From positions 1 through 41,705 of the forward strand of contig JAJFIS010000043.1 in NCBI GenBank assembly GCA_021774735.1: DNA of 41,705 nucleotides, in the 5' to 3' direction. How positions within the stretch are numbered: the first letter of the stretch is position 1; each line of letters starts with the position of its first letter. Below the pieces are notes generated by a model. That model was given only the letters and a program-made list of their open reading frames with translations, had not been told where the DNA came from and searched no databases. The DNA comes from Alphaproteobacteria bacterium (GTDB lineage: Bacteria > Pseudomonadota > Alphaproteobacteria > Sphingomonadales > Kordiimonadaceae). Positions 2-19,657 of this stretch are shown here, one piece after another. The position numbers and the translations under genes are program-made.

Positions 2-121
2 GGTGTACCCAAGGAGCATTTTGGACTATTTTTGAAGGAATGTGAGTGGCGTTTCAATAACAGTGATCCAGCACTTCAATTAAAAGAATTAAAACAGTGG
101 GTTAAAGAGAAACTGGATTAG
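2..121 (+). mobile_element. IS1595-family transposase, C-terminal fragment (cut by window edge)
   Basis: The frame is open from the first base of the window to a TAG at 119-121 and encodes 39 residues. It contains the block LKECEWRFN, which is typical of the C-terminal end of IS1595-family (ISXO2-like) DDE transposases, followed by a lysine-rich tail. The rest of the gene lies outside the window, so I cannot say whether the element is intact. The stop overlaps the stop codon of the convergent TIR gene (118-120) by two bases. This leaves no room for a normal terminal inverted repeat before that gene, so either the IS right end lies inside the TIR coding sequence or it has been lost. Family assignment rests on motif memory only. 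Confidence 0.7.
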
Positions 122-3100
122 TTATCTGGGTCAGCCCCAAAAATTAAATTTTGAGGCTGATCCGCCATCGTAATCGTATTAATGAGTGATTTTGCTTGCA
201 CGTCCCATTCTCTGATAAGAGTGCCTGAATTGGTGAATAGCCGGGAGCCATCATTATTGAGCCAAATACCATCAACTGAAATATCAATGCTCTTTAAGAT
301 TTTAGAAGCCCCGCCAGTAATATTATGAATCTCAATATTTTGAGCATCGACCATTAGCGCGAGGGTTGAAGCATCTCCGCTAACGGCGGTAGCATTATCA
401 TTTAGAAAGCTATTGGCCGGCAAATATTCCCGGGAAATACGACCTGTTTCAGTGTCATAAGCCAGCACTTTCAAATTGCTGCTGATATGCAACCCTATCT
501 CCTTCGGCTTCTGCTCAGGCACCAAAGAAACATCCGTCATTCCATCGGCACTTAATGTTGAACGGAGCATCACACCGTTCAGCTCACGCAGAATCTGCCG
601 TTGGCTTAACTGCAAGGGTGTTTTTAATTGGTATGCTGTTATGCCGTCCAGCTGCCTTGCGGCGGCTTTGTCAACCACCGGCAAAGCCAGTGACATTATG
701 GCTGATCCTTCATCACTGCGGAAAGTAAGGAAATCATCACTTGGGCTAAATTTCAAAGTGCCACCGCCCGCACTGCCTTGATACTGCAGCGAGAAATCTT
801 CAAGGCTCCAAACCCATAGTGCATTATAACTGCTACCCGCAAGCCACTTGCCGGTGCGGCTCCTGGTGAAGCTGGTTGGTCCAGAACTATCCCCTGTCCA
901 TAACGGCTTGGTTTCACCGGTTTTATAGGGATAGGTTGCCAATAGACCATCCCCCGTTAGGGCGAGAATATATTTGTCCTGCACCCCCAATATAGGTGTT
1001 GTTCTTGGATAAATATAGCTGGAATGGGTCACTGAATCATGGCCCACTTTCCAGGCAATGAAATCACTATCACCAAACTGCATCTGCAGCGCAGCGCCAG
1101 TATCAGATAACCAAATCTGACGCGGCATTCCCAGCCCCTGTGACGGCATATCAGAAGCAGGTAAAATATCAAAGCTATGCTCTGTTACGCCCGAACTGAT
1201 ATTTTCTATGCGCACAGCCCCCGTAGTTTCCATGAATATAATATGGCTGCCACTGGCGTTCAGCGCCACAGCGCTTAAGCCTTTCGCGGGCCATGTTTTT
1301 TCCGTGAAGCTTTCACCCTTCGCATGGATTAGCAAGGTCACTGCCCCGCCACTATCAACGGTCAATAGTTTCCGCTGGTCTCGGCTGCTACCAAAAAGTA
1401 AAATGCGCCCACCATACTCATGGCTGTCAATAATGGCGGCCTCACCTTGCTCAAAGCTAACAAAGTCGATATGTTTTTCACTGGTAATAACCGGCAATAT
1501 TTCAGCTTCACTGCCACCATCCAGCACCAACATTTGACCCTCAGAGGACAGCGTTAAAGCGTTGTCGTTAGCAGGTTCATCTTCAACCTTCATTATTTTC
1601 AGGTCATAATGCGTGCCCATAAAGGCATATGTATTTCCCATTTTACCAACCGCAGAAGGCGCACTGAAAGGAAGCCTGCGACAATTAGAAAGGGTAGGCA
1701 CCTGGTAAGTTTGCACCTGCTCATGACTATTCCAGTGGCAAAGCGCCCCTGACTGGGTTTGCACCATCACGGTAGCATCACTGCCATCAATGCCCGCTAG
1801 AATTTTTAAACCCTCTGCCGCCACAGTTTGACGGAGGACAAGCGTATCATCCCCAGAAGTATCATAAATAAACTGGTCTATTTTCCTGCCATCCGACAAA
1901 AACAGCATATTCGTCGTTGGCTCATAATGCGCCCAGCTTAACTGACTATAGAAATATTTTGATGGCATGACCTGTGTCAGCTTTTGCGTGGTGACATTCA
2001 ATAAATAGCGCTCACCTTCTTTCACTAAAAGAAGCATCTGGCCCGAATTATCAATCGCATAGGCCTGACCCTGCCATTTAAACGGCGCGCCCGTGCCATC
2101 GCCATTAATTATTGAAACTGTCTTATTCGACATAGCTAAAATGGCATTTCCTGCCATGATTTGAACGCCGTTAACTGAATAGGGCAATTCGGCCAATCGC
2201 TTTGTCTTACCATCATTACTATCAATGTTAATGCGCTCCAAATAAGAGCCGTCCTCAGTATTGCGAGCGGCAATCAGATAATCTCCCTTTTGCGATAATT
2301 TCAGTTCAGAGACATATTCTCCTGCTGGAATGAGCACTTTAACATATGTAATTTCTGTGCCTTGTAAATTGCCAATAATAGCGTAGGCAACGCCAGAACC
2401 ATCTGTGCGCAATCCCAAAAGCACACGACTGCCATTTGCTGAAATATCGGACCGCGACTGTTCAGCTATGGGGCGAGAAAATAATCGTGTCCCGGAAGGT
2501 ATGTGCCAAAGCTCAACAACAGAATTGCTTTTGGACAGCAGGATATAATCCTTTGTTTGTCTTTGAATCATTGGCAAGGCAGTCGAGTTTAAAGCAATGC
2601 GGGGGGCATCCATCAGTGTTGGCAGACTAATCATATCCAAGTGATAGGAGGGCTTTTTCGCCCACAAATAACCATTCTGAAGGGCATCAAATGCATTAAT
2701 TTTTGGTTTAGGCTCTACAAGCTGCAAGCCTTGGTCAGCTTGCGATAAATCAAATTTGAAAAGGCTCTCTTTTTCTCGAAAGAATAGTTTGGCGCCATCG
2801 CTTGAAAAATACATATCTTGGGCATATGACGACATGACAATATAGGGCAGACGGCTAGTTTCCGTAAGCTTCTCTGCATCCAAGATAATGATTGAACCAA
2901 ATGTGCTGGCCAGCGCGATAAATTGCCCAGCTTCATCAACTATAAAATTCTGGATAGGGCCTCCTGCATCATAGGATAAATACTCTCCGGTTCGATAATT
3001 AACCCTGTGCAAGATGCCCACTTTGGTGCTGTAAAAAACTAAGCCTTTATCAGCAAGTAAAGAATATTTATCGAGCTTGCCCTTTGACGCAAAAAATTCT

Positions 3101-4992
3101 GCCTCATTTTCACTAAGCGAATATCGTCTAATGCTGCCATAGCTGTCGCCGATGATAAAACTGTCCCCCACAGCGGCTGCCGATGTTATGCCCCGAGTTT
3201 CACCATAGGCAAAAAGAGCTTCTTTGCCGTATTTCACATGGAAATTCTGATTTTCATTTTTTCCGTCAAAGGGAATATATTCAGCATCGTTTCGCCCAAA
3301 AGAGACCAGACCTTTATGCTGGAGCTTATTTGCGGTCGCGTAATTTTCCGCCCACGCCTCTATCGTAGGTTCTGCCCCTAACGCGTCCAGTGACCAAACA
3401 TAGCGTTTGCGGTCATACCAATTGGTTAACTTTCCAGCAGCTTCATCAAGTCGCACTAATGTTGATCCCGGCCAGCTAGTGATCTGTTGCCTGTGTTCAG
3501 GTGACCCTATATCTGTTACAAAAGCATCATTCCCTTCGGTATATAAGACCGACTTGCCGTCATTATAAAATTGTAAAAAGTCAAAATTATCAAGGTGATC
3601 GGACCTTGTTGCACCTTCAAAAATTAAGCGTGATGTTCTGGTTTCTGGGGCGTAAGCATAAAGGCCATTACGCGAGGAATAAATGACATGGTCGCCGTCA
3701 ATGCTTAGGCGGTATATATAAGCATATTCATCAGTATCTGGAAAAATGGACTTTCCCGTCCGCGCGTCCCAAGCCCTTGCATTACCGAATGTCGTAACAA
3801 TAATAGTTGATGAATTTGAGGCAAATTCAAGCCTATCCCCCGCACTAGCATATTGGGTCCAATGCTGTAGCTGCTCTAAGCTGCTGGTGTCAAAAATGCG
3901 CAGTTCACCCGACACCTCAAGGGTAGCAACCAATTTTCCATCATCGGAGAAAGCTGCCGCCGTCACACCCTTTTCATGGCCTTCAAGCTTTCCTATTTCT
4001 GTCAAAGGCGCAGCGCCCCAAAGGGTCACCTCACCGTTGGCTGAAGTTGATAAAAACTTGCTTTCATCCTTTGATGCTGTGATTGAGCTCACAGCCCCGC
4101 TGTGATGGCCAATGATTGAAGCGCCGCTCAAAGCCTCCACAGCTTGGTAAAGGGCAATTTCCGCAGCCCGAAGGTAGGGCTTGTCAGGGTCGGCTAAATC
4201 CATTGGCAAGGCCGCGCGTGCCAGCGCCAGTGCCTGTGGCACATCACCCTGCTCTAATGCTTCTGCCGACCGAGTTACAAGTTGTTGGCTAGCATCCGTT
4301 TGAGCCTGCTGTTCCAGTTGATTAAAATTATAGAGCACCGCAGCACCAACCATAAGCGCGGCAGAGGCCGCAAGGCCTATGAAAAACTGCCGCCTTTTCT
4401 GGCGCTTTTTCTCCCGCTGGGCGAGGTCATCAAAATTAACCCCAAGCAACCCCGCTATCAATTTCAGCTTAGCGTTATTTTTACCGTCTTTACCGTCGCG
4501 CATATCAGCGGCAATGGGTTCCGTGCGTTCCTCCGACAGCTCCCCATCATCGCCAACGATAAATTTCAGCGCTGGCGGAAAACATTCGATATCTTCCATG
4601 CCCGGCTTGTCGGTACCATTGGGTTCACCCTCAATGATGATCGCCATGATGCGGTCTTGCTTACCCATCCGCTTAAAGGTCAAAATCTCTTCATTAACGA
4701 ATAGAGATTTAGCCGACCGAGGCGAGCAAACGACGATCAAATAGTCACTACCATCCAGCGCCATATTAATCGCCGCACCTAAATCAACCGCAGTAGGCAG
4801 TTCTTCCCGGTCACGGAAAATGGGGATCAAACGCTTAGGGATTGGACCATCCCGACCCGGCTTGCCTACAAGTGTTTTGGGAACATTATAAGTTTCAAGC
4901 CCTTTATGTAGCCAGTTAACCACGCCCGTATCGCTGTGACTGTAACTTAAAAAAGCTTTATAGTGCTTCTGCATCTGTTCGCCGTGTCCCAT
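118..4992 (-). CDS. TIR domain - TM - WD40-like beta-propeller protein
   Basis: This is a 1624-residue protein. Residues 10-145 form a TIR domain (FLSYSHSD at the start of strand A, a later SAKSLFVNEE block whose Glu101/Glu102 are candidates for the NADase glutamate). A basic stretch (KKRQKRR, 195-201) precedes one hydrophobic helix at 203-222, predicting the TIR in the cytoplasm and the rest outside. After the helix comes a motif common before WD40 arrays (RSAEALEQGDVPQALALARA). From about residue 288 to the end there are many degenerate WD40-type repeats (for example HHSGAVSSI...TLWG and DDGKLVATL...LRIFD), enough for more than one propeller. TIR proteins of this kind cleave NAD or make signalling nucleotides; activity here is inferred. 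It is the last gene of a minus-strand run, 15 bases after the CII-like gene. The ATG at 4992 lacks a Shine-Dalgarno; an in-frame ATG at 4974 is an alternative. Confidence 0.88.
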   Translation of the reverse strand: MGHGEQMQKHYKAFLSYSHSDTGVVNWLHKGLETYNVPKTLVGKPGRDGPIPKRLIPIFRDREELPTAVDLGAAINMALDGSDYLIVVCSPRSAKSLFVNEEILTFKRMGKQDRIMAIIIEGEPNGTDKPGMEDIECFPPALKFIVGDDGELSEERTEPIAADMRDGKDGKNNAKLKLIAGLLGVNFDDLAQREKKRQKRRQFFIGLAASAALMVGAAVLYNFNQLEQQAQTDASQQLVTRSAEALEQGDVPQALALARAALPMDLADPDKPYLRAAEIALYQAVEALSGASIIGHHSGAVSSITASKDESKFLSTSANGEVTLWGAAPLTEIGKLEGHEKGVTAAAFSDDGKLVATLEVSGELRIFDTSSLEQLQHWTQYASAGDRLEFASNSSTIIVTTFGNARAWDARTGKSIFPDTDEYAYIYRLSIDGDHVIYSSRNGLYAYAPETRTSRLIFEGATRSDHLDNFDFLQFYNDGKSVLYTEGNDAFVTDIGSPEHRQQITSWPGSTLVRLDEAAGKLTNWYDRKRYVWSLDALGAEPTIEAWAENYATANKLQHKGLVSFGRNDAEYIPFDGKNENQNFHVKYGKEALFAYGETRGITSAAAVGDSFIIGDSYGSIRRYSLSENEAEFFASKGKLDKYSLLADKGLVFYSTKVGILHRVNYRTGEYLSYDAGGPIQNFIVDEAGQFIALASTFGSIIILDAEKLTETSRLPYIVMSSYAQDMYFSSDGAKLFFREKESLFKFDLSQADQGLQLVEPKPKINAFDALQNGYLWAKKPSYHLDMISLPTLMDAPRIALNSTALPMIQRQTKDYILLSKSNSVVELWHIPSGTRLFSRPIAEQSRSDISANGSRVLLGLRTDGSGVAYAIIGNLQGTEITYVKVLIPAGEYVSELKLSQKGDYLIAARNTEDGSYLERINIDSNDGKTKRLAELPYSVNGVQIMAGNAILAMSNKTVSIINGDGTGAPFKWQGQAYAIDNSGQMLLLVKEGERYLLNVTTQKLTQVMPSKYFYSQLSWAHYEPTTNMLFLSDGRKIDQFIYDTSGDDTLVLRQTVAAEGLKILAGIDGSDATVMVQTQSGALCHWNSHEQVQTYQVPTLSNCRRLPFSAPSAVGKMGNTYAFMGTHYDLKIMKVEDEPANDNALTLSSEGQMLVLDGGSEAEILPVITSEKHIDFVSFEQGEAAIIDSHEYGGRILLFGSSRDQRKLLTVDSGGAVTLLIHAKGESFTEKTWPAKGLSAVALNASGSHIIFMETTGAVRIENISSGVTEHSFDILPASDMPSQGLGMPRQIWLSDTGAALQMQFGDSDFIAWKVGHDSVTHSSYIYPRTTPILGVQDKYILALTGDGLLATYPYKTGETKPLWTGDSSGPTSFTRSRTGKWLAGSSYNALWVWSLEDFSLQYQGSAGGGTLKFSPSDDFLTFRSDEGSAIMSLALPVVDKAAARQLDGITAYQLKTPLQLSQRQILRELNGVMLRSTLSADGMTDVSLVPEQKPKEIGLHISSNLKVLAYDTETGRISREYLPANSFLNDNATAVSGDASTLALMVDAQNIEIHNITGGASKILKSIDISVDGIWLNNDGSRLFTNSGTLIREWDVQAKSLINTITMADQPQNLIFGADPDN

Positions 4993-5007
4993 ATGGTTTG
5001 AAAGCTA

Positions 5008-5445
5008 CTAGGTTAAGGCTTGGCGAATGGCCGCCAAAGCACGCTCAGCCTCGGCTATTTCTTTTTTGATCATCGCAGTATCCCGGTGATCAATGCGATT
5101 GTCTTTCATCGCCGTTTCAACGGCCTCTAAAACATTTGCGGTTTCAATCGCCAAGTGATTGGTGCGGCGGAATACGCTATCGCTGTCCTTAGCATCAATG
5201 GCATCTGCGCGCTCAAAAACCATTAGGTCTGTGCCATCAAGGAAGAAGTCTAATATTTCAACACTGTTCAGGGATTGGGCTAATTGTCGAATTTCTTCCG
5301 CACTAAACAGGGTTTTATTATGCAGTCGTGCGTGAAGGCTATGATAACTCATCTCTAATATTGCAGCTACATCTTCCACCGGGGCCACTTTATCAATCAG
5401 CAGTAAGCGATAGACCAATTCGGAAAATTCTTTGCCGCGTTCCAT
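5008..5445 (-). CDS. Phage regulatory CII (CP76)-like DNA-binding protein
   Basis: This is a 145-residue soluble protein. Residues 20-60 look like a helix-turn-helix (VEDVAAILEMSYHSLHAR, then a segment ending in EIRQLAQSLN). The layout, with a C-terminal helical part rich in Ala and Glu (about 95-145), resembles the CII/CP76 regulators of P2-like phages. I recognise the pattern but cannot run a search. A GGAAG lies 4 bases before the ATG. It sits between the RyR-channel gene (51-base gap upstream) and the TIR gene (15-base gap downstream), so it is almost certainly co-transcribed with them. It could be the regulator of this run or an adaptor whose C-terminal helices bind a partner. Confidence 0.7.
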   Translation of the reverse strand: MERGKEFSELVYRLLLIDKVAPVEDVAAILEMSYHSLHARLHNKTLFSAEEIRQLAQSLNSVEILDFFLDGTDLMVFERADAIDAKDSDSVFRRTNHLAIETANVLEAVETAMKDNRIDHRDTAMIKKEIAEAERALAAIRQALT

Positions 5446-5496
5446 ATCACTTCCACTTCATTCTTTATCAGTCTAAATGGTTAATTAGAGCACCGT

Positions 5497-7959
5497 TTAC
5501 CGTCGTTTCACCGTCTCACTCATTGGGTCAAGAATGATGGTTGCGGGCTCAACAAGGGAATTCCACTGCAAATTTCCAGCCTTGATAATTTCTGCCCTTT
5601 TAGCAAGTGAATCTGCGGTTCCGCCGGGCAAGACCACAGCACCTTGCCTACAGATGGCGATCAATGTTTGGCCGTGCCGGTTAACATAATCAGCCGCTTT
5701 CCTGTAACCCACGCGTCTAGCGTCTTGATGGCTAAAGTCTATATCTTGGCGGAATAACGGGATCACCCATTCGGTTGCTTCCCGCTCAATGATAGCATGT
5801 CTGTCCGCAGTTATTATACGGGCGGCATCACTGTCACTATCGGGGTCAGACCATACAGTCCCAATATCATTCGCCCCAACACCGCAATGTCCGCCTTGGT
5901 TAAATTTAGCCTCAAAGTCATCCACCATCAGGGCTTCTGGCACACCCTCAATAATGACCAAGCGGTGGGGCACCTTATGCTTTTCTAAATAATCAAGGGC
6001 TGCATGGGTCAACAGAGTATCAGACCCTGGGGCGAGTGAAGTCATTAGCGTTATATGTTGACCTAGAGTGCTTTCAATTAAAGTCGGCAAAATAACCCTT
6101 GTTAATTCGGTGCGTAACCACTGAACCTCAGTTTCACTTAATAAATTATGCCCTATCAAGCTAACAACATGGTCGATTCGGCCAATATTGCCATCACTGC
6201 GACTTCGGTCCAAAACCAGTTCGTCCAGTAAGCCAACCTGGTCACGGTCATATTCTTGGTCTTGGTTCGATAGCTCTTCATAGGTCTTACCGAGGAGGTT
6301 ATGAATTTTACGGGCATTGTTACGCACAGCGCCGCCTGTCCAACCATCCACATAACGCCCCGCAGTCCATGATTTCTGCTCTAAAGTCGCAATGCGGTTC
6401 AACTGTTCATCACCGCCCGCCACCATCTTGTATGTTGGATACACATTTAAGCCGTAGCCCGGTGGTCTAATACAGCCAGCGCTCGCCATTTTAGCGGGCA
6501 GATGGTCCACCGCACGGCGGTTAGACACCTTTAAAGTCTCGCTTAACTGCTGCCATCCGGTAAAGCTTTCTTGCTTGATAATCTTTTCGCTGGGGCTGAG
6601 CGACTTCACACTATGGTCTTGGTATTTCTCATGCAGACGAATAGCCGATTTTTCCAAAAATCCTGAGATCATATCTCGGTCACAGATATGCCGCTGCATG
6701 CCAAATGCGGTCAGAACTGACCCTAAATGAACGGTTTCCTTTGGGCTGACAAGTAAGTCTTCCATGCCTGCGGCTCGGTCTAAGCGCAAATATATTGGGA
6801 AGTTATCACGGCCCGATTTTATCAGCCCTGCCCTGATAGCTAATGCTTCCTGCATGCAGGTTTCATCACTTTCAGCAAAGAAAAATAGATTGGAAATAGG
6901 CGCTTTTTCTTCAATGGACGCCAAAAGCTCATCAGGTAAATGATTGGCATTTATGGGCATCGACAAAAAGGTAAAATCTACTATTTTTGCCAGCTCGCCG
7001 AAACGGATCAAACAGCTAGTCTCAGCCTCATCTGGGTTTCCACAAAGAACCGTGAAACGCATGGGGCCAAAGGATTTATAGATACAGCTGGTTGCGATGC
7101 GCGAAATTAAATTTTCTGCATAGTCATCATAGCCCACAAAAACGCAGTGCAGCCGATTCTGATCCAGCATTTCTGCGTGTTTATAAATAGGGTGCCACCA
7201 AACAAACTCTCTGGCGGCTAAGGTTGACCGGTTAAAAGGATAAACTTCAACATTTGCTTTAGAGGCTGCGAATAAATCTTCATCACTTATTTTCTGCCAG
7301 AGCGCCTGCTTGGATATCTCCACATAAATAGATAAGGCATCTGCGGTATTTTTTGAGCTGTCGATAAGGCCCCTTGCCGTCATTAAGCTCTCTAAATTAA
7401 CGGAATCTTGGCCTGCAACTAAAATTAAATTTGACGCCTTGCCCAAACCGGCCATTGTAAGAATACCCAAATCCCGACAGTCGCCCGGTACGAGGAATAT
7501 TTTATTCACCGAACAAAAAACATCCATCGCATCGGTGAGCTCTTTTTCCACCACGACAACTACATTGCCCTTTTTACGCTCCGACAAAGCAAAGGCCAAA
7601 CCACCACCGCCCAAGCCACATATAATGGTATGGCCTTTTTGGCGCGCAAGACGCCATTTCTCAATACGGTTGATAGAAAGCTCGATGACGATACGAACGG
7701 CTGCACCCAATAGGGTGAGCAAGGCCATTATTTTTGCTATTCGAAGTGCGTAGTTATCAGCGTCAAAAGTTTGGCTATAGCCCTCACCCACAAACATCAA
7801 AAGCGTTTGCGTAATAATTTCCATTACCCATTGTGCCAAAGGAACAGTTCGGTCCGTGTTACTATCGGTTCCCCAACCCCACAGCCCCAATGTGACGGCA
7901 CCTAACGCCATTAAAATCAATAGAGGCCAATAAAATTTGTCGATTTTATTCTGTCGCAC
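5497..7959 (-). CDS. Two-TM channel-like protein with two TrkA-N/RCK domains, RyR domain and SLOG domain
   Basis: This is an 820-residue multidomain protein. Residues 10-30 and 74-96 are hydrophobic helices flanking a pore-loop-like segment that ends FVGEG (56-60), where potassium channels have TVGYG. A TrkA-N/RCK Rossmann domain follows (glycine motif GLGGGG at 115-120), then a second weaker one (FVGYDDYAE, 274-282). Residues 465-575 match the RyR domain (GRYVDGWTGG and KIHNLLGKTYEEL, ending YDRDQV). Residues 595-790 look like a SLOG Rossmann fold (SLIGHN, then SLAPGSDTLL, then VVLPGGT). RyR and SLOG domains are described as ligand- or nucleotide-binding modules in bacterial conflict systems. 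I infer a membrane sensor or gated channel. The start is GTG at 7959, with AGGGA 7 bases upstream. A strong hairpin lies between it and the upstream protease gene. Confidence 0.85.
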   Translation of the reverse strand: MRQNKIDKFYWPLLILMALGAVTLGLWGWGTDSNTDRTVPLAQWVMEIITQTLLMFVGEGYSQTFDADNYALRIAKIMALLTLLGAAVRIVIELSINRIEKWRLARQKGHTIICGLGGGGLAFALSERKKGNVVVVVEKELTDAMDVFCSVNKIFLVPGDCRDLGILTMAGLGKASNLILVAGQDSVNLESLMTARGLIDSSKNTADALSIYVEISKQALWQKISDEDLFAASKANVEVYPFNRSTLAAREFVWWHPIYKHAEMLDQNRLHCVFVGYDDYAENLISRIATSCIYKSFGPMRFTVLCGNPDEAETSCLIRFGELAKIVDFTFLSMPINANHLPDELLASIEEKAPISNLFFFAESDETCMQEALAIRAGLIKSGRDNFPIYLRLDRAAGMEDLLVSPKETVHLGSVLTAFGMQRHICDRDMISGFLEKSAIRLHEKYQDHSVKSLSPSEKIIKQESFTGWQQLSETLKVSNRRAVDHLPAKMASAGCIRPPGYGLNVYPTYKMVAGGDEQLNRIATLEQKSWTAGRYVDGWTGGAVRNNARKIHNLLGKTYEELSNQDQEYDRDQVGLLDELVLDRSRSDGNIGRIDHVVSLIGHNLLSETEVQWLRTELTRVILPTLIESTLGQHITLMTSLAPGSDTLLTHAALDYLEKHKVPHRLVIIEGVPEALMVDDFEAKFNQGGHCGVGANDIGTVWSDPDSDSDAARIITADRHAIIEREATEWVIPLFRQDIDFSHQDARRVGYRKAADYVNRHGQTLIAICRQGAVVLPGGTADSLAKRAEIIKAGNLQWNSLVEPATIILDPMSETVKRR

Positions 7960-7992
7960 TTATAGTCCCTATACCAGTTATACACTATGTGA

Positions 7993-8024
7993 CATATGGC
8001 TCCTTATTTCTAAGGAACCATATG
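7993..8024. other. Strong intergenic hairpin between protease and RyR-channel genes
   Basis: CATATGGCTCCTTA (7993-8006) pairs with TAAGGAACCATATG (8011-8024) across a 4-base loop, with one non-Watson-Crick position in 14. It lies between the stop of the FHA-protease gene (8034) and the GTG of the RyR gene (7959). There is no T-run after it on the minus strand, so it is a poor intrinsic terminator. mRNA processing, differential stability within the operon or a protein-binding palindrome are equally possible. Confidence 0.6.
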
Positions 8025-8033
8025 GCATAATCA

Positions 8034-9800
8034 TCACTCAGCGCGGCTCCAAACCAGTTCAAATTCAATACCAGCCTTTGGTCCCATGACAAAAATATAT
8101 GCATTGGTCAGCAAGGCTTTATCCTTGCCTTCTTGCAATCCATTAATGATCAAACGAGGTGTGGAATCGCTTCCATCTGAACGCGCAAGGATATTCAGCT
8201 TTTCATTCACTAAGAACATATCAATATCTTCACCGCCCACTGCTGATGCTATCATAACATCAACCTGACCAGCTGTTTGAATGTCAAGCTCAAAGCGAAA
8301 GAGAATACGGTTCAGTTGGGGATCACTTGCTAATTTTTTCTTGCCACGGAAAACCGACTGAACATCTTTGCCCGTTTTTTCACGGACGTCATAGGCCATT
8401 GACATATGAAGCGCATCGACAAAGGACTTATATTCAGTAGAGCGATTGTCCCAGTAAGCCTTTCTGGCATCAGAAATATCATTAACTGAACCATTCACTA
8501 GCTCCTTCAATACATCAACACGCTGACCAAAATTAACCCCGCCAACGTCAATCCTAGTATTATTAACAACGGTCAGGTTACCACCGCTTAACAGGGCAAC
8601 CACTTCACCGTTATGGTTGAAGATTGGCGAACCCGATGCGCCGCCACCTGCACCCATGGAAAATTGAACAAATTGATTTTGCAGCGGGTCAGTGCTGGTT
8701 AAGAAATAGTCAGTTATAGAGGTTATATTACCCACTTGCTGCTGTGGTTCTGGCTTGCGGGCATTAACGCCGCCGGCAACCATATTTTCCATCGGATAAC
8801 CAATATAAGCAACTTCATCGGCAGAATTTAAATCTATCAGATCTGTTGCACTGGCAAGTTTTAAGGCTGGCGCTAGCCCGTCAACATCATCGGTATAAAG
8901 CAAACCAACGTCATAGCCTGTAACAAAGTTTAACCTGTTACCACGATCATCAAAAACAGGCTTTTCTTTCAAATATTTAGCAAATTCCCCGTAATGAGGG
9001 TGCGCAATAACTTGCTTAATAACATGCTGTTGATAGGGGGGATAATTCGCCACAACCACAACTTCATAACCCTTTTCCGCATAGCCCTTCATGCCTTCAA
9101 CCACATGCGCATTTGTCGCCAAAGTACCGTCACCAACAACCCAAGCGGTGCCTGAGCCCAGCAATTGCTCCCCGCGCCTTGCCGCAACCAGATAAACTGA
9201 TTTTTCCAGTGCTGGCAGAACTTCAGAAAATGATCGCTTCTCCAGCCCTTCAACTTTAGCCTTCTGTTCCTCAATGGAAGCAATGAAATCAGCCGCATTC
9301 GCCGCCATCTGGTCTTCAATGGTTTCACTTTTTTCAAAGAGATATTGATACCCACCAACGGATATAAGCGCCAAAACCACAATAGACGCGGCAACCTTAA
9401 AGAATTTACCCGATGCTTCTTCGCGGGCGGTTTTTTTCTTGGCATATATCGGTTCAGTTACTGGCACCTCAAGATCAGCATAGGAGGAGGTAACCTCATA
9501 ACTTGGACCATCCTTGGCACCAACCGCAATTAAATGTGATCCAATGGGCAGCTCAATTTCGTCTTTAACCAGCTCACCATCCAGATAAACATAATTATCG
9601 CTTTGCATGATGATGCGATAATGACCTAGCTCAAACCGTAAGGAAAAATGCCGGGCACTTAGATGCTTCGTCGCATCACTATGGGGCCACTGAATATCGG
9701 CCTCATGGGCGCGCCCAAACAGAATATCCGTTTTCTCGTTACCAAACTCAAACACTTCGCCCTCATTTGGGCCAGACTTCGCTGTAATTCTTATAGCCAT
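8034..9800 (-). CDS. FHA domain - TM - trypsin-like serine protease (copy 1)
   Basis: This is a 588-residue protein. Residues 1-100 are an FHA phosphopeptide-binding domain with the conserved Gly29-Arg30 and Ser48/His51 (SARH). One hydrophobic helix at 134-153 follows a basic segment (KKKTAREE), so the FHA should be cytoplasmic and the remainder periplasmic. A coiled segment (160-190) leads into a chymotrypsin-fold protease at about 195-435 with a complete triad: His232 (TNAHVV), Asp297 (GYDVGL), Ser389 (GASGSP). The last 150 residues form a beta-rich tail resembling pre-peptidase C domains. An AAAGGAA lies 9 bases before the ATG. Its neighbour upstream is a second FHA-TM-trypsin, 74 bases away. 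The likely role is transducing a phosphorylation signal to a periplasmic protease; the substrate is unknown. Confidence 0.88.
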   Translation of the reverse strand: MAIRITAKSGPNEGEVFEFGNEKTDILFGRAHEADIQWPHSDATKHLSARHFSLRFELGHYRIIMQSDNYVYLDGELVKDEIELPIGSHLIAVGAKDGPSYEVTSSYADLEVPVTEPIYAKKKTAREEASGKFFKVAASIVVLALISVGGYQYLFEKSETIEDQMAANAADFIASIEEQKAKVEGLEKRSFSEVLPALEKSVYLVAARRGEQLLGSGTAWVVGDGTLATNAHVVEGMKGYAEKGYEVVVVANYPPYQQHVIKQVIAHPHYGEFAKYLKEKPVFDDRGNRLNFVTGYDVGLLYTDDVDGLAPALKLASATDLIDLNSADEVAYIGYPMENMVAGGVNARKPEPQQQVGNITSITDYFLTSTDPLQNQFVQFSMGAGGGASGSPIFNHNGEVVALLSGGNLTVVNNTRIDVGGVNFGQRVDVLKELVNGSVNDISDARKAYWDNRSTEYKSFVDALHMSMAYDVREKTGKDVQSVFRGKKKLASDPQLNRILFRFELDIQTAGQVDVMIASAVGGEDIDMFLVNEKLNILARSDGSDSTPRLIINGLQEGKDKALLTNAYIFVMGPKAGIEFELVWSRAE

Positions 9801-9874
9801 ATCAAATGGTTCCTTTCCCGAACAACCCCGTAATGACTTTTACACTACGTCTCAAATTCAACAATTGCAATTTA

Positions 9875-11665
9875 TCAGCGTTCTGCAAAGATTTCCCCTG
9901 CACAAACGCCTTTTGACCAGACATAAATATTAATTCTGAGGCTATCCCCAGAATGACCACCACCAATAACCATCTCAATCATTTCACGTTGGCCACCCGC
10001 AGTAGTTAAAGCGCCGTTAGAGCTGCGCGAAATATGGTCAAATTCAAAATCAAGGAATGTCTTCCTCATATCTTCACTGATGCTGAAGCTTGTCTCTGGC
10101 GTGTCTACTGTTGCCTGCAGGCACCCAGAAATCTTCCCACTTTTCGCGGGACAATGTCCCCTTTTCAAGGACTGGGCATAAACATAATATTTACCCGAGA
10201 CGGGTAGTGGCATTTCCAGAGCATCAAATCGTCGCCTGATTTTTTGCCCCCACATAAAAGGGGCTGTGTCCCAATCATAGGTGAAGCTGGCTTTGCACAT
10301 ATTTGCTGTCGGTTCTGATTGAGCATCAATCAAAGCCACTTTGCTTGCTTCAATTGTCGGCAAATCCGAAGTCCAACCCGACCAAATTTCTTGCTCGGCT
10401 TGCCAATTTATCTTGTCTCCACTTTCCTGCTTTAACATCTGGTGCAAGAACCGCAGGTTTTGACCGTAAGACTTTCCAGCAGAACTAACCGCTTTGCCAT
10501 TGCGCATTTCTTTCGAGCCTGAAAAATGAACAGCAACAACCTTGCCGTCCGCATTAAAAACTGGACCGCCACTGTTGCCGCCCCAGGTTTCAATGTCATA
10601 AGCCATAAAGGGGCTGGTCGCTTTTTCACCCTGCTGCTGCGCAAATCCTGCACGGCCATAAAAAGCCCCATATTCTATAATCGGTATCGGGCGTGTCTTG
10701 TCAAACTCGGTACGGTTCACCTTATTCGGATACCCTGCAATTGCAAGGGGCTGCCCTCGGTGCATTGCGGCAATCTCTTCAGCCTGGGCCAACTCCAGTG
10801 GTTTAATATGGTCCGGGATCCTTTCCACATGCAATGCAGCAAGGTCGTATGGCCTTAAGTAAAGCTGTTGAGCCTGAAACTTGATCGGCGGAATGCTGGA
10901 TAAATAGTTCTGAAAACGGGTCAGGCCAGGGTGATAAGTAACACCGATAATCCGAATGAGAGTGCCGTCCACACCGGCTTCAGTTGGCGGCACCCTCAAG
11001 TATGCAGAAGCGCCGTTTGTAATAGAAAAGTCAACAGATTCAGCAACATGCCTATTCGTAACCACCACACCGCCCGGTGCCAACCACGCGGTTGCAATGG
11101 GGGTAAGTTCTCCGTCAACTTCGCCCGGCTTTGTATTTTGAACAGAGAAAACACCTTGAAGCGTTTGTTCAGATATTTGGATATCATCATTTTGGAACCA
11201 AATGACAAATGAAGTCAACGCAGCCACCAATGCAGCGCCCGCCAATCCAAGGGCATATTTCCCTGTTGTGAAGGGCGATTTTTCCGGCGCTGTTATATGA
11301 ACCGTTTCAGCTAAAGTACTGATGGGAATATATTCAATGTCAAAAGTAGCGGATGTTTCACCCTCCACAAAGGATATAGTGCAGTTGCGGGGGAGATTTT
11401 GCTGGTCGTAAACACGTTTTCCACCTAACCAGACCGCCCCTTGACCGTTGGTGTCAAGTTGAAGGCAACCGGGCCCAAATTCCAGCTCACAATGTTGCCT
11501 GCCGACACCTTTTTCGCTCAGCTCTTCAGGAAGAACAACGTCAGCCCAGTTGCTATCCCGGCCAAAGCGAATGACCTGAATTTTGCCTTCTTCATATTGA
11601 GAGCAGTTTCCGTGACTGTCATTTATGCGAACAACAGCACCTGTTTTGGCCTGACCCGTCGGCAT
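9875..11665 (-). CDS. FHA domain - TM - trypsin-like serine protease (copy 2)
   Basis: This is a 596-residue protein with the same plan as its downstream neighbour but clearly diverged. The FHA-like domain (10-115) keeps Gly35-Arg36 and His58, but the phosphate-contact Ser is replaced by Gly55 (sequence GRQH), so phosphothreonine binding may be weakened. A single helix lies at 136-157. The protease domain (about 165-410) keeps His206 (TNRHVA), Asp274 (PYDLAA) and Ser365 (GNSGGP). The C-terminal 150 residues include several cysteines and an unassigned beta-rich domain. A GAGGAG sits 6 bases before the ATG at 11665. It is the first gene of the main minus-strand run; the preceding gene is closed by a terminator. 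It is likely inner-membrane anchored with the protease in the periplasm. Confidence 0.88.
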   Translation of the reverse strand: MPTGQAKTGAVVRINDSHGNCSQYEEGKIQVIRFGRDSNWADVVLPEELSEKGVGRQHCELEFGPGCLQLDTNGQGAVWLGGKRVYDQQNLPRNCTISFVEGETSATFDIEYIPISTLAETVHITAPEKSPFTTGKYALGLAGAALVAALTSFVIWFQNDDIQISEQTLQGVFSVQNTKPGEVDGELTPIATAWLAPGGVVVTNRHVAESVDFSITNGASAYLRVPPTEAGVDGTLIRIIGVTYHPGLTRFQNYLSSIPPIKFQAQQLYLRPYDLAALHVERIPDHIKPLELAQAEEIAAMHRGQPLAIAGYPNKVNRTEFDKTRPIPIIEYGAFYGRAGFAQQQGEKATSPFMAYDIETWGGNSGGPVFNADGKVVAVHFSGSKEMRNGKAVSSAGKSYGQNLRFLHQMLKQESGDKINWQAEQEIWSGWTSDLPTIEASKVALIDAQSEPTANMCKASFTYDWDTAPFMWGQKIRRRFDALEMPLPVSGKYYVYAQSLKRGHCPAKSGKISGCLQATVDTPETSFSISEDMRKTFLDFEFDHISRSSNGALTTAGGQREMIEMVIGGGHSGDSLRINIYVWSKGVCAGEIFAER

Positions 11666-11761
11666 TCTGAACTCCTCACTAATGCTTCAAATATTGCGCA
11701 TCCTGTATAACTCGCCGTTACAAAATCTAGTTTTCAGCAAGTAATAAACAAAATCTGCCGT

Positions 11762-11797
11762 AAATATAAATGACCGACCCCGCTTAGGGTCAGTCAT
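11762..11797 (-). terminator. Intrinsic terminator of the small secreted protein gene
   Basis: Read on the minus strand, an ATGAC.GACCC stem pairs with GGGTC.GTCAT around a 6-base loop, with one G-U pair, and is followed by a T-rich tail. It lies 24 bases past the stop of the secreted-protein gene and 97 bases before the FHA-protease 2 start. This implies that the small gene is transcribed separately from the six-gene run's protease-to-TIR part. Confidence 0.75.
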
Positions 11798-11820
11798 CCA
11801 GTTTTTAAGTATTTATGCAG

Positions 11821-12309
11821 TTACCCGCAAGTATGCCAAGTCCGGGTCCAATGAAGCACACCGTAACGGTCATACCAAAAACTATGATCGTGGTAATGAT
11901 TGCCATAGTAACAAGCATTAGCCTCATCAGCTTTTGGATTGGTGGCGGCAGCAAGGGCTAAAGCCTGCTTACCTAGGGCACTATTTTTGCCAGCCGCTTT
12001 TGCTGCAGCCCTGTAAACTTCATCTGCATGCCAGATTTTGTCATCAGCAAGGTCCGCACTATCCGCATCGGCTTCATCTTTAAGCAAAGCAAGATTTCCC
12101 GACATGGACATCATCTTGCCCGCAGCCAAAAGCAATATAGCATCATTACTTTCAAGCCCCGTTTTTAACAGCAATTCAGCTGCCCGTGAAGCATCGACCT
12201 GTTCTTGAGTGGCACCCGCTGGGGCTGCCTTATCCTCACCTACTATCCCCCCCTGGACACTAGATATTGAGAGAACGACAGAGACTGCTAGTAATTTTAG
12301 CATATTCAT
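11821..12309 (-). CDS. Small exported protein, Cys/His-rich C-terminus, unknown function
   Basis: This predicts 162 residues from the ATG at 12309, chosen because AAAGG lies 7 bases upstream (an upstream in-frame TTG at 12324 overlaps that site). The N-terminus is a signal peptide (NMLKLLAVSVVLSISSVQG). The middle is Ala-rich and helical. The C-terminal 30 residues are aromatic and histidine-rich, with two cysteines (ACYYGNHYHDHSFWY, ending HTCG), which could make a disulfide or a metal site. I do not recognise the family. It has its own terminator and lies between the divergent kinase gene and the FHA-proteases, which suggests it is the extracytoplasmic member of the same system, for example a protease substrate or inhibitor. 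Confidence 0.75.
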   Translation of the reverse strand: MNMLKLLAVSVVLSISSVQGGIVGEDKAAPAGATQEQVDASRAAELLLKTGLESNDAILLLAAGKMMSMSGNLALLKDEADADSADLADDKIWHADEVYRAAAKAAGKNSALGKQALALAAATNPKADEANACYYGNHYHDHSFWYDRYGVLHWTRTWHTCG

Positions 12310-12487
12310 TTGTACACCTTTCAATTAGTTTAAGTGGGGCAAGGTTACGTTAGGTTTTATTTGTTTGGCAATTAAAAAGAACCTAGAGTTTTTAATCGGG
12401 GCGATTGGCTTCTGTACATATTTAACATTTTTAGCGTTAAAGCCTCATTATCGAGACTATAGTGTAAAAATGACAAAAGGAGCGGCT

Positions 12488-14434
12488 GTGGACAATGAAG
12501 TAAAATATGAAAAAATCTTCGCAGCATTCCGCCGTGAAGACCATCCCTTATGTTTGCAAGCTCTGCATGATTTAGACATCACGCCTGACAAAACAGCATG
12601 GTTGGCTGATACTCTGAAAGCCACGTGGGAGCGCACTAACCCTAAAGACATTTTAGTTGATATTTCTGATAATATTGGAGACTTGAACCCGGGCGTTGAA
12701 ATTGGCCTAGCCTACTTCCTCCAAGGAATTTTATACAACAGGATGGGCCAAACCGCTAAATCCTTCGCCGCCTTTCAAAGCGCGGAGCAATTGGCCAATG
12801 CGGTCAACTCCCCAATATTTGAGATTGAAATTGGCATGGAGCGCGGCGTTGTCTTAGCTTGGCTTGGACAATTTGAGGCCGCTCTAAACGGCTATTTACG
12901 CGTTGTAACATTGGCAATAGACGCCTGCTATGAGATTGGACAGGCAGTGATATGGGCCAAAATTGGCCAGCTTTTTGGGGAATATAATGACCATGAGCAA
13001 TCTTTATATTATCTCCGCTTAGCCAAGAAAAATGGCGGCATGCTTTTGCCGACCCGCTTTCAAATAAATATGGCCATTGAAATGGCTGAAAAGATGCACA
13101 TGCTTGGCCAGAGAGAAGACGCACAAGCCTTAATAAAGGCGCTTGACCCTGCATCCACCGAAGCCTGCGACCAATATACAAAATTTAAACTTGGCCTTAT
13201 GGAGCTTAAATTTTCTGATAGCGAAGAAAAGGCGATCGATATTGCTCACGGCAAAGCCCAAGGATTGATGGAATCCGACGATGCATGGCAAGAAGCGGCC
13301 CTTGCTGCGGCCTTGGGGGAAGCCCTCATAACCATTAAGCCTGCAAAGGCCATTCCCAGTTTAGAACAAGCCGAAGAATATTTCCGCCAGCGCGGCTTAA
13401 TTTCGCATTTATGGCGCTGCCTTATACTGCAAGCCCGCTGCTTGGTTAAGCTAGACAGCCTAGCGAATGCAGAGGCGATGATGCGTGCGGCTAGGGAGAT
13501 TGCCTTTGATCAGGGCAATGAAAGATTGATTGAACTCACCGATAATATTAGGGAAACATTAGGCTTAACCCAAGGATTGGACTTACGCCAAAACGTTAAG
13601 GTTTCAAATGATTATAACAAAGCAAATAATGGCTATGCCACCCTCGAGTTGATAGGTAGCGGTGGTTACGGCGAGGTATATCGCGCTTTTGATATGCTGC
13701 AGCATAAAGAAGTGGCCCTAAAGAAGTTCCGCAACCGAAACCTTAGCATGGGTGAAGTCCAAACCTTCATGGAAGACACTATCAAACGTGAGCTTATCAG
13801 TGCAGCAAAGCTTCGCCATCCAGCCATTGTTGGCCCTACATCTTTTGGCACGGCGGATGACGGAAGTTTTTATACAACATCGCGTTTCATCAAGGGTAAA
13901 CCACTGCGGTCTTTTATGACGGGACAACCTTCCCCCATGAAACTTCTCAAATATCTCGCGCCCATTATCGGAGCCCTTGACTATGCCCACAGCAAAGGCG
14001 CCGTTCACCGAGATATTAAGCCTGAAAATATTATGATCGATGAGAGCAGCAATAGCCTGTTGGTGGATTTCGGTACTGCAAGCTTAAGCGAGGGCATAGG
14101 GGATATCGCCGCTAAATCTGGCACCCGGCCCTATATGGCCCCTGAACATCAACGGGGGCATGACGCCGCCCCTGAAATGGATAGCTTTTCGCTGGCAGTG
14201 ATTATTTATGAATGGCTTATGGGCGAAAAACCCTTTGCAGACCATGCCCCCACTGGGCGCGCCGCATATTGGTGGCAAAACCGGAAGATGAGCGCCAAAT
14301 TAAAAACCGCGGAAATACCAGCGGATATATCCTATCTCTTGCTGCAGGCATTTTCTTACCACGCCAAAAAACGTCCCGACATGGGGGCTTTTAATGCTAG
14401 TATGAAGGCCGCCTACCAAGCCCATCCTAAATGA
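12488..14434 (+). CDS. TPR - serine/threonine protein kinase
   Basis: I place the start at GTG 12488 because AAGGAG lies 5 bases upstream; the frame is open back to a TTG at 12365, which has no ribosome site. This gives 648 residues. Residues 1-370 are helical repeats of TPR type (for example GLAYFLQGILYNRMGQ and AALNGYLRVV). Residues about 380-640 are a complete Hanks-type kinase: glycine loop GSGGYGEV, lysine in VALKKF, catalytic HRDIKPEN near 505, DFG near 526, and APE. The order is inverted relative to usual bacterial PknB kinases, which carry the kinase first. There is no membrane segment from this start. It is divergent from the secreted protein and FHA-protease genes and is the natural writer for the FHA readers. 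Its TPR half probably senses or binds a partner. Confidence 0.88.
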   Translation: MDNEVKYEKIFAAFRREDHPLCLQALHDLDITPDKTAWLADTLKATWERTNPKDILVDISDNIGDLNPGVEIGLAYFLQGILYNRMGQTAKSFAAFQSAEQLANAVNSPIFEIEIGMERGVVLAWLGQFEAALNGYLRVVTLAIDACYEIGQAVIWAKIGQLFGEYNDHEQSLYYLRLAKKNGGMLLPTRFQINMAIEMAEKMHMLGQREDAQALIKALDPASTEACDQYTKFKLGLMELKFSDSEEKAIDIAHGKAQGLMESDDAWQEAALAAALGEALITIKPAKAIPSLEQAEEYFRQRGLISHLWRCLILQARCLVKLDSLANAEAMMRAAREIAFDQGNERLIELTDNIRETLGLTQGLDLRQNVKVSNDYNKANNGYATLELIGSGGYGEVYRAFDMLQHKEVALKKFRNRNLSMGEVQTFMEDTIKRELISAAKLRHPAIVGPTSFGTADDGSFYTTSRFIKGKPLRSFMTGQPSPMKLLKYLAPIIGALDYAHSKGAVHRDIKPENIMIDESSNSLLVDFGTASLSEGIGDIAAKSGTRPYMAPEHQRGHDAAPEMDSFSLAVIIYEWLMGEKPFADHAPTGRAAYWWQNRKMSAKLKTAEIPADISYLLLQAFSYHAKKRPDMGAFNASMKAAYQAHPK

Positions 14435-14525
14435 TACCGGGATAGGCTCGCTTGGGTTAACCGTTTTTCAAGTTGGGCAACCCGATGCGTCTTTTATCGC
14501 ACCCATTGAAGTGAATGATGAATAA

Positions 14526-15389
14526 TTAAGCTGCCCTTGGCCCGTAGCTTTGCCCCGCTGCAATTTGTGCCCATTGCCTAACATGGGGCAAATCATCCCC
14601 GAGCCAGTATGCTCGGCCATTCTCAATAACAAGGATTTCCTCCCATTTTGCCCCTACCGGCCCGTCGCCCGTGTGGGGTTCAACGAGCCATAGACCGTCA
14701 TGGGGGGCATGGTCTGATTGCGGACTTCCGTTCCACAGCGGTGAACTGCGGGCAAGACCCTTGGCCGCGGCAAGCACTTTCATTACGAACCAGCTAAGCG
14801 AGAGGCCGTCGGAGCCCTTTAACCGCCATTTAACCGGCATATTTGCCGTTTTAACGGCACGGTGACCAAAAACGGCACCGGGATGTTTAGTATGCACCGG
14901 TTCATAGCCCATGCTGCGAATATCTACCGCAACCCAGTCGGCTATTTCTTTAAATGTTTGGCCATTATTGACCGCATCGCAAACACCGACGCGGAATTGC
15001 TCAAGCCCGGCCATCATTTTAGCATGCTCAGGATTTTCACCAAAACAACAGCTATAAGAAGTATCGATCATATAGCCATCAAAAACTGGGGCTGCATCAA
15101 GGATGACACTGTCCCCCTTTTGCAAGGTCCGGGATTTGGGGTAGAAATTGCCAATTTTCCAATTGCCCGGCAAGGCCGTTCGTTCCCCAAACAACACCAC
15201 AGGGAGATGAAAAAAGGATTTAGCCCCAGCATCACGATACTGACGCACCAATGCCGCACCAACCTCTTTTTCGCTCTGTCCCTCGGTTAAAGAAGCCGCC
15301 ATATTTTCTAAAATTGAAAAAGAAAGGCTTTGTAATTCTTTAAAACGCGCGAGCGTAGTTGCATCAAAATTTTTTGTCTTAACAAGCAT
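14526..15389 (-). CDS. M24 metallopeptidase family protein (aminopeptidase/creatinase fold)
   Basis: This is a 287-residue protein with the pita-bread fold signature of family M24 (methionine aminopeptidase, Xaa-Pro dipeptidase). Candidate metal ligands are the two aspartates in ILDAAPVFDGYMIDTS, the histidine in VFGHRAV and the glutamates in WLVEPH and WEEILVIENG. The N-terminal prolidase domain is absent, so it is a stand-alone catalytic domain. The spacing between the Asp pair and the His is somewhat unusual, so activity on peptides is not certain. A GGGGGA lies before the ATG. It is convergent with the kinase gene, 91 bases away, and shows no link to the candidate system. Confidence 0.8.
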   Translation of the reverse strand: MLVKTKNFDATTLARFKELQSLSFSILENMAASLTEGQSEKEVGAALVRQYRDAGAKSFFHLPVVLFGERTALPGNWKIGNFYPKSRTLQKGDSVILDAAPVFDGYMIDTSYSCCFGENPEHAKMMAGLEQFRVGVCDAVNNGQTFKEIADWVAVDIRSMGYEPVHTKHPGAVFGHRAVKTANMPVKWRLKGSDGLSLSWFVMKVLAAAKGLARSSPLWNGSPQSDHAPHDGLWLVEPHTGDGPVGAKWEEILVIENGRAYWLGDDLPHVRQWAQIAAGQSYGPRAA

Positions 15390-15589
15390 AATGTTCCCCC
15401 ATTACTGGTTGCTTGCTTTTATAGTAGGCATAACAACAGATAAAACCCAAGGCCATTATTGCTCCATTGCAAATTTTCACATTTGCTGGGGCCGAGTGAA
15501 ATTGTGGCATAAAACATAAGCGTTTGACGCTGGCCTCTATAGAGGGCATCTTTCAAATAAACTAATCTGAAGCTGATTAAGGAGCTTAA

Positions 15590-17296: not shown

Positions 17297-17313
17297 AACG
17301 CCCGTGATGTGGA

Positions 17314-17655
17314 TTATTCAAGCTTGCCTGGTGCGGTTGATGGATAGCTTTGGCTAGCCTCGGCAAATCGCTTCAGCAGCATATCAGGGCCAACAAGTAA
17401 CTGCATGCCTGTTTGATCGCCTGATATCCATTGCACGCGACTAGCAAAGTCGCCAATACCGTCAATTGTCAAGACCACTTGAGTGTTCATTGAAAGATCC
17501 GCAGCACATTTTATCAGCGTTCCAGCAGTAGAAACATCACATATCCCGCAAGGAAACACTTCGTCGTCCAAAGTCGTTACCGTACCCTGCCAAACTACAG
17601 GCAATCTGCTATCCCAGCGACGCTCTAAATTATCTTTTTCTGTTTTATCTGCCAT
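17314..17655 (-). CDS. PilZ domain protein (c-di-GMP receptor)
   Basis: This 113-residue protein is essentially one PilZ domain. It has the arginine motif at the N-terminus (RRWDSR, the RxxxR contact) and the DxSxxG motif (DVSTAG), both needed for cyclic di-GMP binding, so a functional receptor is expected. GAGGA lies just upstream of the ATG. It is convergent with the asparagine synthase-like gene and stands alone, so its output is unknown. Confidence 0.85.
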   Translation of the reverse strand: MADKTEKDNLERRWDSRLPVVWQGTVTTLDDEVFPCGICDVSTAGTLIKCAADLSMNTQVVLTIDGIGDFASRVQWISGDQTGMQLLVGPDMLLKRFAEASQSYPSTAPGKLE

Positions 17656-17851
17656 GACATGTCCTCAAATCTCTAAACTAAATAGTAATTTGCTAATAAA
17701 AGCACCGCCATAAACTATCCTAGGCAAGGCATTTGACCAAGAAATAATCAATTTATGGTTAAAACCCTTTACCTTTTTCTTATCCTTCACCATATGTAAT
17801 GGATAATACCACCCGCAAGCAACCTGTACATTGAATGTGAGGAGACAATTT

Positions 17852-19632: not shown

Positions 19633-19657
19633 CCTTTTGGTTTGTATGGCCTCGCCT

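Follow-up and report, generated by a model that had tools for sequence, protein, structure and literature searches.

Ryanodine receptor (RyR) domains encoded by phages bind or cleave the 2' and 3' cyclic ADP-ribose (cADPR) made by TIR proteins, according to a preprint of May 2026 (PMC13232231). In the phage enzyme RyDEP the ligand is contacted by His75, Trp78, His100 and Asp117, a His and an Asp forming the glycosidase dyad, and of eight other phage homologues tested six bound the signals and none cleaved them (PMC13232231). Among Thoeris effectors, the TM-macro type has a two-helix transmembrane (TM) domain (PMC11204291). Here we analyse a stretch of 41,705 nucleotides (the window), the whole of contig JAJFIS010000043.1 in the 2.78 Mb draft genome GCA_021774735.1 of an alphaproteobacterium of the Kordiimonadaceae, in which a TIR gene and a gene for an RyR-domain membrane protein lie in one operon. 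Our preferred but tentative reading, to which we give slightly less than an even chance, is that the locus encodes a Thoeris-like, TIR-triggered membrane signalling module. The analyses suggest that RyR-domain membrane proteins receive TIR-type alarm signals in bacteria.

All open frames of the seven-gene locus are present as first described (Table 1). Five of them form a minus-strand run from 11665 to 118 that encodes, in this order, FHA-TM-trypsin 2, FHA-TM-trypsin 1, the RyR membrane protein, a CII-like helix-turn-helix (HTH) regulator and the TIR-TM-WD40 protein, with gaps of 74, 74, 51 and 15 bp. Coordinates and Pfam matches over curated cut-offs (TIR_2, WD40, Phage_CP76/CII, TrkA_N, FHA, Trypsin_2 and Pkinase) agree with the initial annotation, which had linked these genes across short gaps on one strand. 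Adjoining the run, as that annotation noted, are a TPR-kinase, which is divergent from the operon, and a small exported gene. The latter gene is followed by its own strong terminator-like hairpin and is therefore probably a separate transcript; on this ground it was rejected as an operon member. The hairpin is absent from the list of a consensus scan, which gave no clear excess over shuffles for promoters (28 versus 25.0, sd 5.7) or terminators (21 versus 17.9, sd 4.5). The five-gene run probably begins its own transcript upstream of 11665. Given that the contig edge lies 117 bp past the stop of the TIR gene, the 3' end of the operon is outside the visible sequence.

The TIR domain occupies amino acids 14-123 (positions 4624-4953) and scores above cut-off with both TIR_2 (35.1 bits) and ThsB_TIR (24.8 bits). 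Its Glu102 lies at a position that does not vary among the five TIRs compared. Alone it had no match in the PDB by phmmer; a profile of the five TIRs matched 39 PDB sequences, including known NADase TIRs such as AbTIR (2.2e-6). A single TM helix (amino acids 203-221) is preceded by seven Lys/Arg, as judged by a simple hydropathy and Lys/Arg scan rather than a topology predictor, so the TIR domain would be cytoplasmic and the propellers periplasmic.

The RyR domain of the membrane protein belongs clearly to the R12 family by profile, despite a Pfam score for the protein alone that is under the cut-off (23.5 versus 27.4 bits). It aligns with 14 homologues and matches the RyR-like structure 3nrt, which we take to be from B. 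thetaiotaomicron, at 6.5e-5; the top PDB match is 6uhi (2.9e-12), a named chimera that matches twice with the same letters. The family profile reaches animal RyR at about 1e-33, the best stretch in the animal chains being the RyR domain, and it also matches PDB TrkA in two stretches. We compared the RyDEP ligand positions in 15 aligned proteins, with lineages uncollapsed, L046 left out and L031 kept. The His100 position is His in all 15, Trp78 is Trp in 14, Asp117 is Asp in 11, and His75 is His in 14, the sole exception being the window protein, which has Gln528. The window protein keeps the other three ligand residues (W531, H553 and D571), and its spacing 528-553 equals the spacing 75-100 in RyDEP. 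Given that the catalytic His is replaced, the window RyR domain should read the signal and not destroy it. From these residues we read it as a receiver without cleavage, the alternative being that binding was lost. This makes the window protein suitable for testing whether cADPR isomers gate RyR-type membrane proteins.

The neighbourhoods of related membrane proteins extend the comparison beyond the window, and the RyR membrane protein emerges from them as the hub. The fetched loci were collapsed to 12 lineages: L014, L045 and L046 count as one, as do L027 and L028 (84% identical), and L025 and L044 are one locus. Six weak TrkA-type loci (L003-L008), two loci that match in the TM/TrkA part only (L023 and L024) and L031 were left out of the counts, and Pfam scans covered chosen neighbours rather than every frame. 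Of the 12 lineages, 11 have at least one gene of TIR, STAND, caspase, patatin, trypsin or SLATT type no more than 10 kb from the membrane protein; in seven (the window, L012, L014/L045/L046, L025, L026, L027/L028 and L042) one of these genes is within 100 bp and shares the strand of the membrane-protein gene. STAND-type ATPases are carried by L013, L014, L026, L029, L030 and L042. The L042 protein matches that of the window at 1.9e-7 and, though without a Pfam RyR call, aligns with the RyR motif.

The 11 other genomes with the membrane protein hold 32 TIR genes, of which four lie beside it against 0.15 expected (P 2e-5). Five of 17 nSTAND1 genes over cut-off do so against 0.09 expected (P 6e-8). 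Patatin genes are found beside it in three of 11 (P 5e-4), an enrichment that was not counted as independent because it comes from one family. The TIR and nSTAND1 tests are not independent of each other, since genomes G056, G090 and G545 count in both. Association of TIR and nSTAND1 genes with the RyR membrane protein through chance is unlikely. In several families of the phylum such membrane proteins are encoded next to TIR, STAND, caspase and patatin genes, and they could be a further class of receiver in TIR immunity.

The gene set itself recurs less often. A single-sequence search with the membrane protein of 59 genomes, its own included, gave clear matches in its own genome and G056 and six weak TrkA-type matches; the same kind of search found it in three of 385 genomes of the class, own included. 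Profiles found it in ten of 398 genomes of the phylum and six of 385 of the class, again counting its own; three of the ten match in part, G640 and G441 through the TM/TrkA region alone and G598 through RyR alone. No closer relatives of the window protein were found in genome contigs (by pattern) and no match in phage records; plasmids gave one weak match. The L011 homologue matched three Sinorhizobium plasmids. Viral contigs, searched with the L011 and L027 homologues and not with the window protein itself, gave no match. The FHA-trypsins occur in two of 246 genomes of the order, one of 398 of the phylum and one of eight of the G056 family, that is, only in the own genome and G056. A genome-contig search with poor patterns returned the L013 contig again only, and none was found in plasmids or, by pattern, in viral contigs. 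Given their absence from every further genome searched, the exact gene set is rare.

One locus brings four of the seven families together again. L013 (contig JACZYI010000017.1), from another family of the same order, encodes an RyR membrane protein truncated by the end of the contig, a TIR-TM-WD40 protein, an FHA-trypsin and a TPR-kinase split over two frames; its fifth gene encodes a DUF4062-nSTAND1-WD40 protein (nSTAND1 and propellers by Pfam, DUF4062 by eye). Gene order differs from that of the window, the strands are mixed, and P0008 and P0009, which lie to the right of the locus in the window, have no match there. BLAST identity to the window is 67% over 180 amino acids in the TIR part, 34% in the FHA-trypsin, 26% in the membrane protein, 32% in the kinase and 23% in the TPR part, while the WD40 parts gave no BLAST match. 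This suggests that the TIR was held and the presumed sensor changed. The co-occurrence of these families beyond the window, which the initial annotation had proposed as a check, is thus borne out in rearranged form at 23-34% identity (67% in the TIR part). As support that annotation had asked for repeated co-occurrence, in genera that are not related, of four or more of its seven families next to defence-island genes; four were seen together once, at L013, within the order, and the FHA-trypsins were found in no further genome searched.

In the scenario that we favour, the TIR-TM-propeller protein would sense a disturbance, probably via its fast-diverging periplasmic propeller, and the cytoplasmic TIR domain would turn NAD+ into an ADP-ribose-type signal, for instance 2' or 3'cADPR. 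The RyR domain of the membrane protein, whose gene lies two places upstream of the TIR gene in that operon, could bind the signal. Binding would be relayed via the TrkA-N/RCK-type domains, so that the two TM helices open or cluster and the inner membrane is depolarised or permeabilised in response. The threshold would probably be set by the cytosolic TPR-kinase, which would phosphorylate a partner recognised by the FHA domains of two membrane-anchored trypsins with predicted periplasmic protease domains. The logic of this second layer, from phosphorylation through FHA docking to periplasmic proteolysis, is suggested by domain knowledge only. The genes, their domains and operon spacing, the conserved residues and the recurrent neighbourhoods are observations; the biochemistry, the ligand, the ion flux, the kinase-FHA step and a purpose in phage defence are what we infer from them.

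Several observations weigh against this scenario. Gln528 could abolish binding and not only cleavage, because His75 also contacts the ligand, and the Asp117 position has another residue in four of the 15 proteins. A TIR gene is nearby in only four of the 11 other genomes with the membrane protein; others have STAND, patatin or SLATT genes instead, which may mean another ligand. At L043 no conflict neighbour was found (two neighbour frames were scanned, and the contig has no TIR, nSTAND1 or patatin). The P values assume uniform gene positions, and conflict genes cluster in genomes; together with the shared genomes this makes them optimistic. The combination of FHA-trypsin and kinase occurs at two loci, and 20 further frames of the window have no conflict-type domain by Pfam scan (PADLOC was not run on them). 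AlphaFold single-sequence models were too poor to use (mean pLDDT 37.5 and 34.9). Nor is the membrane protein a proven channel. A hydropathy scan places two TM helices before TrkA_N. A TVGYG-type filter was seen neither in the window protein nor in any of the 12 homologues whose sequence covers this part (L013 is cut and L031 is not a channel). The region between the helices reads VGEGY in the window and SFGFG in L025, filter-like yet not conserved. Lacking the filter, the protein falls outside the canonical 2TM RCK K+ channels. Candidate actions on the membrane are a pore, a transporter-like activity and membrane disruption. Of the initial idea that an RyR/SLOG channel senses a ligand, the sensing part is made concrete by the phage RyR domains that bind cADPR isomers (PMC13232231), and the word channel is what the missing filter leaves unproven.

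The same genes could be read otherwise. The RyR domain might terminate the signal, the family cleaving or soaking up TIR-made cADPR so that the system stays quiet; the TM/TrkA-N part would then respond to NAD(H) or K+ like an ordinary RCK protein. TrkA_N domains bind dinucleotides in known relatives, the family matches PDB TrkA structures, and most homologues keep the RyDEP glycosidase dyad positions (His in 14 of 15, Asp in 11 of 15). We nevertheless think this quite improbable, given that the window protein itself is without the catalytic His, that no membrane anchor is needed for such a role, and that the six phage homologues of eight that bound the signals, like the other two, cleaved none (PMC13232231). 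An envelope-stress or cell-death signalling complex unrelated to phages, whose periplasmic propellers and trypsins detect damage to the envelope and whose membrane protein regulates the balance of ions, would fit the predicted periplasmic location of the propeller and both trypsin domains. It would also fit the 20 other frames of the window without conflict-type Pfam domains, the lack of a phage-record match and the single weak plasmid match for the membrane protein, and the lack of FHA-trypsin matches in plasmids or, by pattern, viral contigs. However, the STAND, TIR, caspase, patatin, SLATT and FGE/RT genes that recur beside the membrane protein are parts of conflict systems, and we regard this complex as unlikely.

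There might also be no joint system, and separate signalling genes may simply have piled up at the end of a contig. FHA-trypsins in only the own genome and G056 among 246 genomes of the order are in keeping with this, as are the different gene order, mixed strands and different fifth gene of L013. An accidental pile would hardly explain a same-strand run with gaps of 15-74 bp, the excess of TIR and nSTAND1 genes next to the membrane protein, or four families reunited in rearranged form, at low identity and without matches to P0008 and P0009, in L013. We therefore give this explanation little probability.

The SLOG domain that the initial annotation had assigned to the membrane protein is retained as tentative. 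The C-terminal part of the window protein matches the L042 C-terminus at 4e-4, and a two-sequence profile matches four neighbour proteins (probability 82.7) whose SLOG-like label was given by motif. The L042 C-terminal part reaches YAcAr, a SLOG family, at 0.05, under cut-off. Pfam, NCBIfam and PADLOC gave no SLOG match for the window C-terminal part, and the profile of SLOG-like neighbours had no match in the PDB. Comparison with E. coli Smf/DprA (E 0.11 and 0.32) was not significant and no better than the Fmt control (0.36 and 0.37), and the assignment was downgraded accordingly. The SLOG-like neighbour at L012 has relatives near the membrane protein in L025 (5e-12), L027 (8e-5), L045/L046 (1e-4), L014 (5e-4) and L028 (7e-4). 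Those in L025 and L027 carry SLATT-type domains, at scores under the curated cut-offs; in these proteins, which are encoded close to the RyR protein, the SLOG-like region and the SLATT-type membrane domains form one chain (L025 7446-9260, which is L044 2447-4261, and L027 12718-14427).

Active-site motifs are found in both FHA-trypsins and in the kinase. FHA-trypsin 1 has FHA GR and SARH motifs, a TM helix at amino acids 133-151 and a presumed triad H232, D297 and S389 (GASGSP); the second has GRQH in place of SARH, a TM helix at 139-157 and a presumed triad H206, D274 and S365 (GNSGGP). In both, the FHA domain is predicted to be cytoplasmic and the trypsin domain periplasmic. The kinase has intact VALK, HRDIKPEN and DFG motifs. 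Its frame opens at TTG 12365, and the most likely start is the better one at GTG 12488, behind AAAGGAG. This start removes an apparent N-terminal TM helix, so the kinase would be cytosolic; a membrane-bound kinase was rejected, the L013 relative also having no N-terminal TM helix by eye. Topology and intact motifs make a kinase-to-FHA link with the proteases as outputs plausible.

PADLOC matched the seven proteins only through kinase domains (PD-T4-6, mad6 and others), protease domains (RT-Protease_XI and others) and weak TIR and MTase_II matches. The kinase matches cover the kinase domain only and were rejected as evidence of those defence systems. By PADLOC the locus corresponds to no known defence system, its models gave no match for the membrane protein or the CII-like protein, and neighbours and homologues were without strong matches. 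The small exported protein has no Pfam or NCBIfam family; its C-terminus (gene 11821-12309) is rich in His, Tyr, Trp and Cys.

Table 1. Features of the seven-gene locus in the window and gene types beside RyR membrane proteins at fetched loci (L numbers)
Feature	Locus	Coordinates	Strand	Basis or remark
TIR-TM-WD40 protein, 1624 aa	window	118..4992	-	Pfam TIR_2 and WD40 over cut-off
CII-like regulator	window	5008..5445	-	Pfam Phage_CP76, 36.2 bits (cut-off 26); ends 15 bp before TIR gene
2TM - TrkA_N - second Rossmann-like region - RyR - tentative SLOG protein, 820 aa	window	5497..7959	-	
Tentative SLOG-like C-terminal domain of membrane protein	window	5500..6174	-	weak matches only
RyR (R12, PF02026) domain, aa 522-575	window	6235..6396	-	profile and alignment
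FHA-TM-trypsin 1, 588 aa	window	8034..9800	-	Pfam FHA and Trypsin_2
FHA-TM-trypsin 2, 596 aa	window	9875..11665	-	Pfam FHA and Trypsin_2
Terminator-like stable hairpin 3' of small exported gene	window	11755..11822	-	-28 kcal/mol, z -7.6
Small signal-peptide-like exported gene	window	11821..12309 (ORF 11821-12324)	-	likely ATG start 12309
TPR-Ser/Thr kinase	window	12488..14434 (ORF 12365-14434)	+	Pfam Pkinase
TIR-WD40	L011			near RyR membrane protein
SLATT	L012			16 bp from RyR membrane protein
DUF4062-STAND-TPR	L014/L045/L046			4 bp overlap (L014, L045)
Patatin, SLOG-SLATT	L025			near RyR membrane protein
Caspase, caspase-FGE, TIR-nSTAND1-WD40	L026			caspases on both sides
Patatin, SLATT	L027/L028			near RyR membrane protein
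nSTAND1-FGE, reverse transcriptase	L029			near RyR membrane protein
DUF4062-STAND-WD40	L030			near RyR membrane protein
TIR-nSTAND1-TPR	L042			37 bp upstream of RyR membrane protein

Some of the fetched loci have features of their own. In L026 (6409-13048) a caspase, the RyR membrane protein and a caspase-FGE gene form a tight run (26 bp gap, 4 bp overlap), possibly a caspase-RyR unit. The L029 RyR membrane protein has an nSTAND1-FGE gene 3.2 kb and a reverse transcriptase 0.8 kb upstream (2-4629), an arrangement that resembles the diversity-generating retroelement or hypermutated sensor loci of PMC10907252. L031 (7541-10063) combines a RelA/SpoT synthetase region (4.5e-12), TPR and RyR (2.8e-15) without TrkA_N, possibly an RyR domain on an alarmone enzyme. 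L045 lies on a conjugative Sinorhizobium plasmid; beyond its RyR protein, on the opposite strand, are two genes with adenylate/guanylate cyclase annotations (11447-19704). Within the window, a plus-strand fragment of a 39-aa frame (1-121) ends at 121 and overlaps the stop of the TIR gene at the contig edge; it has no Pfam match, and we take it to resemble the tail of an IS transposase. At 34549-39713 a tRNA-Arg precedes a DUF2971 gene, a DUF6624 gene and two ORFs with no assigned family, possibly a small island.

The locus resembles Thoeris in that the TIR protein (there ThsB) shares an operon with a nucleotide-binding effector, a role that the RyR protein would play here. No SIR2 or macro domain, as in the SIR2-SLOG or TM-macro forms of ThsA, was found in the seven proteins of the window, whose contig ends beyond the TIR gene. 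By the definition in PMC11204291 the locus therefore falls outside Thoeris. The proposed receiver in the window is an RyR domain (with the tentative SLOG) behind TrkA-N, the TIR is fused to a TM helix and WD40 propellers, and the locus further includes two FHA-trypsins, a kinase and a CII-like regulator. The mixing of TIR, trypsin or caspase, kinase, FHA and STAND within a locus recalls the STAND/TIR/peptidase conflict systems (PMC7159879, PMC8195603). The seven proteins of the window have no STAND, vWA or MoxR by Pfam, and thus neither the STAND/EAD nor the vWA-MoxR arrangement. In the main texts of both papers RyR and TrkA do not occur, and ryanodine, searched for in PMC8195603, occurs there only in the reference list. 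Among the titles and abstract beginnings listed by literature searches, none describes a bacterial RyR membrane protein tied to TIR; a 2015 survey of nucleotide-centred conflict systems in Nucleic Acids Research may mention such architectures.

Like RyDEP, a phage anti-Thoeris counter-defence enzyme whose relatives are sponges, the window R12 domain has the same Trp, His and Asp ligand positions (PMC13232231). It differs in being part of a bacterial protein with predicted TM helices, in its TIR operon and in having Gln for the catalytic His. A more speculative idea, which we think somewhat unlikely, is a bacterial TIR-to-RyR axis, in which cADPR isomers from immune TIRs would directly open or cluster the RyR membrane protein as a counterpart of the link between cADPR and animal RyR. 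Phage RyDEP would then be escaped host receiver domains, the window protein a receiver without hydrolysis, and most of its relatives maybe self-resetting, ligand-cleaving receptors. The cADPR link to animal RyR channels has long been debated, and TRPM channels carry SLOG-type ligand domains. The window protein shares with these animal proteins an RyR repeat in a channel-type protein, and it differs from them in its 2TM/RCK architecture, its single RyR domain and its place in a bacterial operon.

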